Shown one piece after another: positions 29,577 to 38,075 of a DNA stretch of 64,000 nucleotides. The notes beneath the pieces were generated by a model that was not told the DNA's origin, did not search any database, and saw nothing but the letters and a program-made list of their open reading frames with translations. This stretch comes from Chitinophagales bacterium (lineage in GTDB: Bacteria; Bacteroidota; Bacteroidia; Chitinophagales; Saprospiraceae). A program made the translations under genes and the position numbers. The stretch spans positions 1 through 64,000 of the forward strand of contig JAAFJT010000004.1 in assembly GCA_013298955.1 (NCBI GenBank). Direction: 5' to 3'. Each line of letters opens with the position of its first letter. Positions within the stretch are counted from its first letter, which is position 1.

Positions 29577-29784
29577 GGTTAATTAGAATTTAATAAGCTA
29601 AAGAAAAAATGAATATTGCCTACTCTATCCCGCTTTTCGGCTTCCGCGCTCACTCGTTTGTGCATAACAAGGGCTATACAAGGTCGTGTGATTTCCACCT
29701 TATTTCTTAACTATTTGATATTGAATGGATTATGATTTTCATTTGGTTTTTAAGAGCAACTATATTTCTTCGTAATTGATGATA

Positions 29785-35342: not shown

Positions 35343-35459
35343 AGTATCTTTGAATTTTTTTAATGAAAAATGGTTAATTGCAAGATAACGCTTTTTGAAA
35401 CACAATATTACTTTGAAAATAATTTTTTACTACGCAAATAGATTGCGTAGTAGCACAAC

Positions 35460-35467
35460 TATCTTTG
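35460..35467 (+). promoter_or_regulatory. Consensus -7 promoter box facing the tRNA-like gene
   Basis: TATCTTTG followed by C is the best-known form of the Bacteroidota -7 box. The predicted start near 35474 lies 134 bases before the tRNA-like sequence at 35608, so it may drive that RNA, the protein gene at 35826, or both. Confidence 0.6.
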
Positions 35468-35607
35468 CAACATCAAACGTTGATAATCATCGTTTCAAAA
35501 TATTTAAGGTCAAGTTTGGGTTACTTCTATCACACTCCTAATGTAAAAACCTGAGCAATTATCTATTTTTTTTGAAACGATGGTTTGATACGCAAAATAG
35601 TGATATG

Positions 35608-35729
35608 AGGACAGTAGCTCAGTGGTAGAGCAGCTAAAAGTTTTGTGATTATCTGTCAAAGGTCAAATGAAACTTACTTCTCTCCCATTAACGGAGCGGG
35701 TCGCGGGTTCGAATCCCGCCTGTCTTCCA
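35608..35729 (+). tRNA. tRNA-like gene interrupted by a 48-nt insertion in the anticodon stem
   Basis: The 5' part (35608-35635) gives acceptor AGGACAG, UA, D-stem GCTC/GAGC with loop AGTGGTA, and the start of an anticodon stem. The 3' part (from 35684) gives the rest: stem closing GGAGC, variable GGGTC, T-arm GCGGG-TTCGAAT-CCCGC, acceptor CTGTCTT. Removing 48 bases (about 35636-35683) joins GCT to CC and restores a perfect GCTCC/GGAGC stem with a 7-base loop CATTAAC. The loop lacks U33, the acceptor holds a G-U pair, and position 73 would be C, so identity and function are doubtful. Read literally, the anticodon would be UUA. It may be a relic, a composite of two tRNAs, or an unusual RNA. 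Confidence 0.5.
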
Positions 35730-35825
35730 ATATAGGTCAATTGTTGCTTACTTCTAAAATCAATTGGTGAAACAGCAACAAAATTACCTTATTTTTTAAC
35801 ACTGTTCAAGCACAATTCATTGAAT

Positions 35826-38075
35826 ATGAATGATTTATTGAAAATATCTTTGCGTCAAAATGCTGTTTTTATTCCTAAAACAGCCCTTGTTGATGCACCT
35901 AAAAGACTTTCTCAAAGCACTGGATTATTGGTTGCCAATTTGGGCAAATTGGGTTTTGGCGTTTCAGAACCATTGTTGCACGCCCTCAATGGTTTGAAAT
36001 CCGATAATCACACCGAAATTTTAAATATATTTCGGGAAATCATGGGTGTTAACAAAAACTGGACACCTTTGGTTCGGGCTTGGGATAAACCCACAGGTGA
36101 GTCGCATATGGATCATCTTATCACTTTTTTTCACAATGTTTTCAAATTGGATGGCGGCACACGGCTTGCTTGTGGACATACGATTCCTGCACACACGTTT
36201 CCATTGGAACGCTATACCGGTTGTCCGTTTTGCGGTATGCCGTTTAAAACCCATTTTTTGCCTTTGCAAAGTCAAGGCAGCAAACGCAAGATTTTAGAGT
36301 TGTGGTCAGAGGCGGATATGAAACCTTTTTTAAACGATTTGTTGATTTCCAAAACCGCTTTGGATGCGACGCAAATCGATAGTTTAAAAATTTTGTTAAA
36401 AGCCTTTTCCTCCGAAGTGGATTGGGCAACTGTCAAAATTGGCATGAAGGAAACGTTGATGGCAGTCGTCAACGCATTGGTCGAAAATGAACAAGGCGCA
36501 CAAGCGCAAGCCTTGTTTACATCACCGACTGACATCTTGCGTTACCTTTGGTATAACAAAACGGGTTATTTACAAATCATTGAACCTAAAACGATTGTAA
36601 AAAGAAATCGCAAAAATGCGTTGCATTTTGGAAAGGGGAAAGAGGCTGGTGCGCAAGCAGATTTGGCAAAAAAATTAGAATTAAAACTGTATTACGATAG
36701 AAAAGAAAGCGTTGTGATTGCGCGGTGGTTGAATGGTTTGCCGGGTGAAGTCGAAAAAATCTGCGAAATCATGCACCCAAAACGCGGGATGTGGGTGCGT
36801 TACATCCGCGCCTTGCGCTTGACGGAGTATGCTAAACGCCCCGGTTTTGAAAAATTAGCGGCTTTATTGCAGGCTTTTTACCACGAATTGTATGATGTTT
36901 GGGAAGGACGGATTCATTTTTTTCGATTGAAAATGGATGCACATAAAACATTTAGTTTATTGCAACAACGTCCCGGTTTATTTGCACGGTCTTTATTTGC
37001 CAACATTTTGTGGTTTGGCGCGGACGATACAATCGCCGCATTCGCGGCTGTGGTCGATAAAGTGCCTGCTCGATTGGTTTTTTCATTGAATATGTATGCA
37101 GAAACCTATTTCGACCCAACTATTGAACGGACGGTCAAACCATTAGGCGGAGTTGCAAAACGAATCCCTGCAAACAAATTGTTAGGTAGTTTCAATGCAG
37201 CACAATTGGAAGCTATTCAAGAAAAAGTGCAAGGATTGACCTTATTGGCAATGGAAAAACGGTTTGCAGCAGTGCAAAATTTGAATAAAACGATGTATAT
37301 CGAACCGATTTTGTATAAAATGCCTGTGGCGATTGGCGACCGAAGTGAGACGATTCAAGATTTGCCTGTTGCGTTGCAAGGGACGCGGTTTGCGATACAG
37401 GGCGATATGGTTCGATTGTTCATGCAGTGGGGCGCGGGATTGCCTGCGCAACATATGGATATGGATTTGAGTGCGCATCTCGCTTTTCACGATAAACGGA
37501 TGGAAGCCTGCTCCTATTATCAGTTGACGGCAACAGGGTCGAAACACTCAGGCGATATTCGGAGCATTCCCGACAGAGTCGGTACAGCAGAGTATATTGA
37601 ATTGAATATCAAAGCATTACGCGAAGGAAAAGTGCAATATGTGACGTTTACCTGTAATGCGTATAGTCGCGGCAGCATCACGCCGAATTTGGTTTTGGGT
37701 TGGATGAATAGTAAATTTCCGATGAGCGTTTCCGAATTAACGGGCGTTGCGTATGACCCTTCTTGCGTGCAACACCAAGTACGAGTGACGCAAAGTTTGG
37801 CAAAAGGCATGGTTTTCGGAGTGTTAGATGTAGATAATCATGAAATTGTTTGGTTGGAAATGCCGTTTCAAGGTCAAATGGTTGCACAATTGGATACGCA
37901 AGCAGTACAAGGTTTGTTAGCGAAGTTAGATGCCAAATTGACTATTGGTAAATTATTGAAAATCAAAGCATTCGCTCAAAATATGACGCTTGTAGAAACG
38001 CCAGAAGCAGATGAAATCTATACCAAACAATGGGGCTTAAATGCGGCTGCGGTGACGCAATTGTTGATTGATTGA
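35826..38075 (+). CDS. RING-like / TerD-like protein (MXAN_6230/SCO0854-type)
   Basis: The 749-residue protein has a RING-like zinc module at residues ~116-136 ('ACGHTIPAH' with C116 and H118; 'GCPFCG' with C133 and C136) and a C-terminal domain (~560-700) resembling TerD. The latter shows 'DMDLSAHLAF' for the DLDxSA calcium motif, 'KHSGDIRS' for the HSGDN segment and 'VTFTCNAYS' for the last strand. The middle is helical. This layout matches a RING protein family that accompanies tellurite-resistance/TerD-type stress modules in other phyla; that identification is from memory. No other ter genes are in the window. The ATG at 35826 is preferred to TTG 35820. Its 3' end overlaps the convergent DUF1501 gene by 39 bases. 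Confidence 0.65.
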   Translation: MNDLLKISLRQNAVFIPKTALVDAPKRLSQSTGLLVANLGKLGFGVSEPLLHALNGLKSDNHTEILNIFREIMGVNKNWTPLVRAWDKPTGESHMDHLITFFHNVFKLDGGTRLACGHTIPAHTFPLERYTGCPFCGMPFKTHFLPLQSQGSKRKILELWSEADMKPFLNDLLISKTALDATQIDSLKILLKAFSSEVDWATVKIGMKETLMAVVNALVENEQGAQAQALFTSPTDILRYLWYNKTGYLQIIEPKTIVKRNRKNALHFGKGKEAGAQADLAKKLELKLYYDRKESVVIARWLNGLPGEVEKICEIMHPKRGMWVRYIRALRLTEYAKRPGFEKLAALLQAFYHELYDVWEGRIHFFRLKMDAHKTFSLLQQRPGLFARSLFANILWFGADDTIAAFAAVVDKVPARLVFSLNMYAETYFDPTIERTVKPLGGVAKRIPANKLLGSFNAAQLEAIQEKVQGLTLLAMEKRFAAVQNLNKTMYIEPILYKMPVAIGDRSETIQDLPVALQGTRFAIQGDMVRLFMQWGAGLPAQHMDMDLSAHLAFHDKRMEACSYYQLTATGSKHSGDIRSIPDRVGTAEYIELNIKALREGKVQYVTFTCNAYSRGSITPNLVLGWMNSKFPMSVSELTGVAYDPSCVQHQVRVTQSLAKGMVFGVLDVDNHEIVWLEMPFQGQMVAQLDTQAVQGLLAKLDAKLTIGKLLKIKAFAQNMTLVETPEADEIYTKQWGLNAAAVTQLLID

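Follow-up and report, generated by a model that had tools for sequence, protein, structure and literature searches.

The stretch analysed here (64,000 nucleotides of a Chitinophagales genome, referred to as the window) contains at positions 35608-35727 of the forward strand a sequence that looks like a tRNA gene with 48 extra bases in the 5' strand of its anticodon stem. This raises the question of what such an element is: a tRNA awaiting splicing or a collapsed tandem duplication, both raised in the original prediction, or an RNA in its own right. We consider it quite probable that the element is a structural noncoding RNA gene with a Y-type arm set into a tRNA-shaped body, located upstream of the gene for a Ro60-like protein. 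For simplicity, this tRNA-plus-Y-module RNA is called tY RNA. No earlier report of tY RNA or of its pairing with a RING/TerD gene was found among the titles and abstract openings listed for the open-licence literature; it may already be known elsewhere.

The Rfam tRNA model (RF00005) matches 35608-35727 with 45.2 bits (E 2.1e-6 for the window, cut-off 29), placing a large insert in the anticodon arm, in agreement with the predicted interruption of an otherwise intact tRNA fold; ARAGORN called no gene at these positions. The acceptor 5' strand (35608-35614) pairs with 35720-35726 at all seven positions (one G-U), the D arm GCTC/GAGC (35617-35631) at four of four and the T arm GCGGG-TTCGAAT-CCCGC (35703-35719) at five of five. 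The discriminator is C35727 and CCA is not encoded. The insert spans 35634-35681, with an ambiguity of 2 bases in its boundaries because CT occurs at both insert ends. When it is left out, GCTCC and GGAGC form a 5-bp anticodon stem around the loop CATTAAC, as was foreseen together with the literal anticodon UUA and the absence of U33, which is replaced by A. The 3' part of the anticodon arm, CTCC-CATTAAC-GGAG-C, occupies 35682-35697, and its last base, C35697, can pair with G35633. Measured against a functional tRNA, with a continuous 5-bp anticodon stem and a 7-nt loop containing U33, the stem strand is split here by 48 nt and position 33 is an A.

The insert comprises linkers and a self-contained hairpin module of the form AUUAYC-loop-GGUCAA. 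Its outer helix, AGTTTTGT/ATGAAACT (35639-35674), pairs 35639-35646 with 35667-35674 and encloses a conserved internal loop and a loop-closed inner stem, ATTATC ... GGTCAA (35648-35666). The module is followed by the conserved UUACUUC (35674-35680), which is largely single-stranded and also occurs in TROVE-linked Y RNAs. Two other readings of this segment were rejected: a tRNA-His based on a GTG in the insert, whose five flanking bases pair at 3 of 5 positions (by eye, one G-U) and belong to the module helix, and a group I or other known intron, for which no Rfam intron match was obtained within 35608-35727. The cloverleaf-plus-arm layout rests on comparison and not on energy because the bare RNA is predicted to fold otherwise: its minimum-energy fold has a value of -36.1, compared to -28.2 for the cloverleaf plus arm and -23.2 when the split outer anticodon pair is included.

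The comparison was based on 26 non-redundant tY RNA copies, from which a covariance model (called R1) was built; the window copy, itself part of the training set, scores 106.5 bits. Rows were picked by requiring the acceptor, D and T arms together with the search motif GGTCA with TTACT, and the module helix was not used, so that the statistics of the acceptor, D arm and T arm are biased because these arms served in selection. Over the whole structure, 97.2% of the cells pair versus 81.4% in shuffled alignments, and the covariation score is 0.585 versus 0.257 in shuffled and at most 0.142 in slid versions. The acceptor, one of the arms used in row selection, is paired in 98.9% of the cells with two-sided changes at six of its seven pairs. 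The module outer helix, free of this selection, shows two-sided changes at all seven counted pairs and 91.8% of cells paired, whereas the three inner module pairs vary on one side only. Across the 26 sequences, every base of GGTCAA is invariant (GGTCA belonged to the search motif), as are the two leading bases of ATTATC, A and T.

In the window, tY RNA lies between two free-standing Y-like hairpins, all just upstream of the gene at 35826-38075. Hairpin 1 (35502-35569), GGTCAA ... GTTACTTC ... AATTATC, is a diverged copy of the module with 7/7 distal and 1/5 basal pairs and is weak on its own (fold z -0.69). Hairpin 2 (35729-35794), GGTCAA TTGTTGC TTACTTC ... GCAACAA AATTACC, abuts tY RNA and has 7/7 distal and 2/5 basal pairs (fold z -2.34, equalled in 5 of 200 shuffles). 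The likeness between the insert and the downstream flank at a spacing of 74 bases, on which the idea of a collapsed tandem duplication was founded, is real: both carry GGTCAA-N6-CTTACT, and the pattern GGTCAA-N(4,9)-YTTACT occurs twice in the window versus 0.10 expected, with no two occurrences in any of 100 shuffles. What is shared, however, is a conserved module that stands free in all 80 homologous loci examined and in most of these loci also forms an arm within tRNA-like RNAs with several anticodon loops. A search with the local DNA in 40 genomes (own included) returned a 124-base match across the insert in G025, a member of another family of the order, and a partial match in G019; both loci contain the module in the anticodon arm of tRNA-like RNAs, free hairpins and a homologue of the gene at 35826-38075 downstream. 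The comparison of related genomes suggested in the original prediction, i.e. whether an intact tRNA exists elsewhere and this copy is in random decay, showed relatives with the same insert and compensatory changes. A duplication or a decaying tRNA pseudogene, which the window's loop without U33 would fit, is hence hardly credible in view of the same architecture with compensatory changes across Bacteroidota.

The linkage to the gene was determined with the 80 top-ranking homologues out of 246 from named genomes, whose record titles indicate Bacteroidota taxa except for L079, which is labelled only 'bacterium'. Copies of the loose motif are present upstream of the gene and on its strand in 80/80 loci, with a single copy on the other strand; most lie within about 650 nt, and each locus has 1 to 10 of them. 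With a strict test (at least 5/7 distal pairs, 900 nt upstream of the gene), 212 hairpins were found, distributed over 80/80 loci, versus none in 1,239,349 control bases (the gene and its downstream region on the plus strand and the whole minus strand). Of these hairpins, 210 lie outside tRNA-like RNAs and still cover 80/80 loci. The first hairpin test had let basal pairs help; when the 3' anchors were chosen without basal pairs, 55 non-redundant free hairpins averaged 3.40/5 basal pairs versus 2.28 in swaps (reached in 0/2000). An integration (att) site had also been considered and was dropped, as the motif clusters upstream of one gene family.

This one-sided position on the gene's strand is what would be expected if the hairpins were a cis-acting autoregulatory 5' leader of the RING/TerD mRNA, i.e. 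binding sites for the protein of that gene and not separate RNAs. We judge this unlikely: the tRNA body with its open acceptor looks made for release as a separate RNA, the copy number varies as given above, and similar hairpins were seen by eye downstream of the gene outside Bacteroidota (L150, L153).

A script that demanded an acceptor, a D arm and a T arm detected module-bearing tRNA-like RNAs in 74/80 loci. R1 exceeded 60 bits in 74/80 loci as well, corresponding to 58 of the 64 other loci because 16 of the 74 had supplied model rows. Of the six remaining loci, L071, L113 and L142 reached 54.5, 53.4 and 52.1 bits, respectively, and L073, L078 and L137 gave no such match. The two methods miss different loci and together place tY RNA in 78/80; L073 and L078, in which neither method found a clear copy, do contain free hairpins. 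Two plasmid copies outside the training set scored 93.2 (Hymenobacter, L148) and 89.0 bits (Segatella, L149). In some tRNA-like RNAs (L072, L129, L137, L140, L145) two modules are found within one anticodon arm, in part with an extra T-arm-like hairpin inside.

The same model was run on 60 genomes (own included), six of which contain the RING family and five TROVE. Only two genomes, G000 and G025, gave scores above 60 bits; each has the gene and is represented in the training set. With stricter filters, this score was exceeded in 0/54 genomes without a RING-family gene. The highest listed match elsewhere (58.3 bits) was at ordinary tRNA length. Among the other gene-bearing genomes, G019 gave two parts of a copy (50.2 and 20.8 bits) and G057 40.2 bits, the G049 locus has free hairpins only, and in G023 the RING-family gene is split across contig ends. 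Inspection by eye of the G019 copy (L025, about 1570-1735, read on the minus strand) revealed that roughly 150 bases split the module loop; their ends resemble inverted repeats, as in a small transposable element.

Could the module be an intron, removed and the halves ligated (e.g. by RtcB) to yield a working tRNA? With the insert disregarded, 22/26 non-redundant rows form a 5/5 anticodon stem, compared to a mean of 2.85 and a maximum of 9 in 2000 swaps, and to 10/26 and 5 rows in controls slid by -1 and +1, respectively. These values supersede a swap control on all 87 rows, in which 30.6% had a 5/5 stem because the Flavobacterium rows are near-identical. Many of the loops are canonical. CTTTTAA (34) and CTTCTAA (13) are found among the 87 copies together with TTGTTAA, TTGTGGT and TTTTGGT, which we take to resemble the loops of tRNA-Lys UUU, Arg UCU, Asn, His, Gln and Pro; the variety therefore points to several tRNA identities, presuming these assignments. 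RtcB is also present in 6/6 gene-bearing genomes of the set. Nevertheless, the insert follows 0 to 5 nt of the anticodon-stem 5' strand depending on the row, the linkers vary too, and U33 is present in 15/26 loops and absent in 11/26, the window's among them. Moreover, the domain that makes up the insert also stands free in its immediate neighbourhood and in 80/80 loci, ordinary tRNAs exist apart from the element in the window's genome (e.g. two tRNA-Lys(UUU)), and we know of no bacterial tRNA-splicing endonuclease of the kind needed. We therefore regard splicing as quite improbable. Bacterial tRNAs with group I introns are likewise interrupted in the anticodon region; tY RNA differs from them by its 48-nt hairpin insert and by the lack of a group I intron match at the element.

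RtcB matches lie in the flanks of 31/80 loci, contig ends having truncated some of the flanks. Most of these loci are from Flavobacterium, with others from Emticicia (L072), Chitinophaga (L132) and a MAG (L079); Rhodococcus phage Weasels2 has RtcB near the gene as well. In G049, RtcB is found within 500 bases upstream of the RING-family gene, and a Variovorax RING-family gene lies near rtcR. The window gave no RtcB match.

The gene at 35826-38075 (forward strand, ATG start chosen by us) encodes a protein of 749 residues, a distant relative of the MXAN_6230/SCO0854 RING family according to its match to NF041916 (131.7 bits over residues 12-702, under the curated cut-off of 600). Pfam yielded nothing above cut-off, with Prok-RING_4 at 15.5 bits (cut-off 27) indicating a weak RING-like motif. 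An AlphaFold2 model of the full-length protein (41 sequences; mean pLDDT 77, pTM 0.53) contains a Ro60/TROVE-like helical domain at about residues 155-500 and a TerD domain at about 492-697. Comparison with VIA recovered the TerD fold (3ibz, Z 13.9 over 155 residues; 2qng, 13.6; 2kxt, 11.8), and among the 50 matches shown for the full-length model the sole one with more than 200 aligned residues was Ro60 (9nfa, Z 7.7, 321 residues, rmsd 5.1). Residues 155-500 folded alone reached a pLDDT of 87 and a pTM of 0.72. The six best VIA matches of this domain were all TROVE/Ro60 with Z 8.9-7.5 over 252-268 residues, rmsd 5.7-6.4 and 8-16% identity: 9kop (Z 8.9, 252 residues, rmsd 6.2), 9l5y (8.7), 9nfa (8.1), 2i91 (7.8), 2nvo (Rsr of D. 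radiodurans, 7.7) and 1yvr (7.5). TROVE/Ro60 accounts for 8 of the 11 best matches, the other three aligning 95-96 residues with Z 7.2-7.4, and weaker TROVE matches tie with CAND1 (Z 7.4, 96 residues); according to the VIA advice for helical repeats, a Z under about 13 can mean a common arrangement. Foldseek returned no match at E 0.001 or better for the helical domain and nothing significant for the full-length protein, whose low-ranked matches were taken as chance.

Taken together, the models suggest that the helical domain is akin to Ro60/TROVE. As in Ro60/Rsr, Y-type RNAs flank the gene; unlike Ro60/Rsr, the protein has a C-terminal TerD domain and a weak RING motif, and no match to PF05731 (Pfam TROVE) at E 1. 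A classification as Pfam TROVE was accordingly rejected, and the kinship appears at the level of structure. The window's genome gave no PF05731 match either.

Bacterial Y RNAs are partners of TROVE/Rsr proteins and mimic tRNAs with a closed acceptor; to our knowledge, YrlA has no free CCA end. The RF02553 model starts and ends at the basal stem, followed by the T arm, the closed acceptor and the D arm. According to PMC8394870, the large stem of YrlA is formed by its own 5' and 3' ends and tethers Rsr. In both YrlA and tY RNA, a stem whose internal loop is conserved is attached to a tRNA-like part made up of D arm, T arm and acceptor. They also have in common a link to RNA-repair genes and the UUACUUC motif, seen in the TROVE-linked loci L057 and L157, and both lie beside a Ro60-type gene if the tY partner, whose likeness to Ro60 is structural and of modest Z, is counted as one. 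They differ in that YrlA ends at the Ro-binding stem and has its acceptor closed, while tY RNA combines an open acceptor with a closed Y arm, which is the opposite circular permutation. With its order of acceptor, D arm, module, anticodon part, T arm and acceptor, tY RNA departs from RF02553 in its ends and acceptor, and up to E 10 this model found nothing between positions 35400 and 35850 of the window (cut-off 69 bits). In the wider sense of a stem with a conserved internal loop plus a tRNA-like domain, tY RNA has the makeup of a Y RNA.

RF02553 matches the TROVE locus of G019 (L057) end to end with 40.8 bits (cut-off 69), and GUUACUUC is present in this locus. In the TROVE locus of Streptomyces phage BRock (L157), the model matches twice in part (32.8 and 32.4 bits), and UUACUUC appears several times; upstream of the TROVE genes in L060 and L156 no UUACUUC-type motif was seen. 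Beside the RING homologue of phage Weasels2 (L154), the YrlA model matches in part (26.4 bits, positions 23-86), and UUACUUC hairpins accompany this match by eye. By eye as well, free modules containing a T-arm hairpin were noted at L117 3740-3830, L091 3757-3834 and L074 3827-3919, those of L117 and L074 having in addition a closed acceptor-like hairpin (tetraloop-closed in L117), i.e. minimal YrlA-like forms. Both permutations appear to coexist in one locus because some Flavobacterium loci pair an open tY RNA with such YrlA-like free modules. Like tmRNA, tY RNA has tRNA ends and a large insert replacing part of the anticodon arm; it differs in its length of about 120 nt, and the Rfam tmRNA match to a Flavobacterium tY RNA (L117 3621-3740, 27.7 bits) is below the cut-off of 47.

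As judged from sequence, tY RNAs form a conserved family, characterized by their anatomy, covariation, strict linkage to one gene family and a YrlA-like motif and layout. A tY RNA is best read as a variant bacterial Y RNA with an un-permuted tRNA body and a new kind of Ro60-like partner, and its conservation beside the Ro60-like gene suggests an unrecognised RNA-handling system in Bacteroidota. In such a system, the tY and hairpin RNAs would be transcribed and the Y-type arm, with its GGUCAA/AUUAYC internal loop and UUACUUC, might be held by the RING/TerD protein through its predicted Ro60-like domain. The tRNA body would act as a tRNA mimic, processed and modified by tRNA enzymes, and may tether, gate or decoy a partner that acts on tRNA during RNA repair or decay. 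More tentatively, and in our view less likely than not, these RNAs could represent a second Ro60/Y-RNA lineage with a RING/TerD partner, in which complete tRNAs with many different anticodons received the Y arm as a graft. With true tRNA ends (RNase P, CCA) and a displayed anticodon arm, they would act as sentinels that sense anticodon nucleases or as decoys that draw them, in conjunction with repair by RtcB.

Open-acceptor tY RNAs with a different Ro60-like partner would extend the Ro/Y system to Bacteroidota without TROVE, such as the window's genome, and would tie RING/TerD proteins of unknown function to RNA handling. They would also give a natural test of the role of the tRNA-like part because the acceptor may be CCA-tailed or even charged. 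The occurrence of both permutations (open here, closed and YrlA-like in some of the same loci and in a phage) would, if true, mean that tRNA mimicry is a modular property of Y RNAs and arose more than once. For annotation, it should be kept in mind that tY RNA is missed by ARAGORN and labelled by Rfam as tRNA or, in Flavobacterium, as weak tmRNA, with possible misannotation.

A candidate operator/promoter of the cluster (35430-35467, forward strand) consists of the palindrome CTACGCAAATAGATTGCGTAG (35430-35450) and TATCTTTG (35460-35467), the latter fitting TAnnTTTG, presumably the Bacteroidota -7 box. Palindromes of this pattern occur within 1.5 kb upstream in 66/80 loci; in 952,336 control bases the pattern matched 216 times with overlaps counted, at roughly half that number of distinct sites. 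The palindrome combined with TAnnTTTG was found in 4/80 loci and 13 times in the control, so the combination is not conserved. As for the consensus promoter box originally proposed upstream, a sigma-70-like box exists, but six such sites lie in 600 bases compared to 2.5 (s.d. 1.7) in shuffles.

Distant homologues are found on phages (6 records) and plasmids (17 records); in a search for close phage or viral homologues, 36 stretches matched a pattern in viral contigs and none was confirmed. Outside Bacteroidota, stretches resembling hairpins, with loops of the CUUCCUUCU or CAUCCUUCU type, adjoin the gene in Variovorax, Streptomyces, Deinococcus and Vibrio plasmids (by eye, unscored). Hairpin-like repeats of the type CTTCCTTCT/CATCCTTCT were noted beside RING-family genes at L150 5443-6029, L153 6206-6620, L152 3157-3576 and L151 2821-3371, the hosts being Variovorax (with rtcR near), Vibrio (with an RNA ligase gene near), Deinococcus and Streptomyces plasmids. 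Elsewhere in the window's genome, a group I intron match of 42.4 bits (cut-off 50) lies beside tRNA-Gly(GCC) (L011 180-383, minus strand) and may split tRNA-Leu(UAA), which is absent from the ARAGORN list for the loci taken; in the relative G004 a group I intron (65.1 bits, L037 1622-1826) lies downstream of tRNA-Gly. The window itself contains at 29617-29650 (minus strand) the Rfam DUF805b RNA motif with 38.7 bits (cut-off 35.6).
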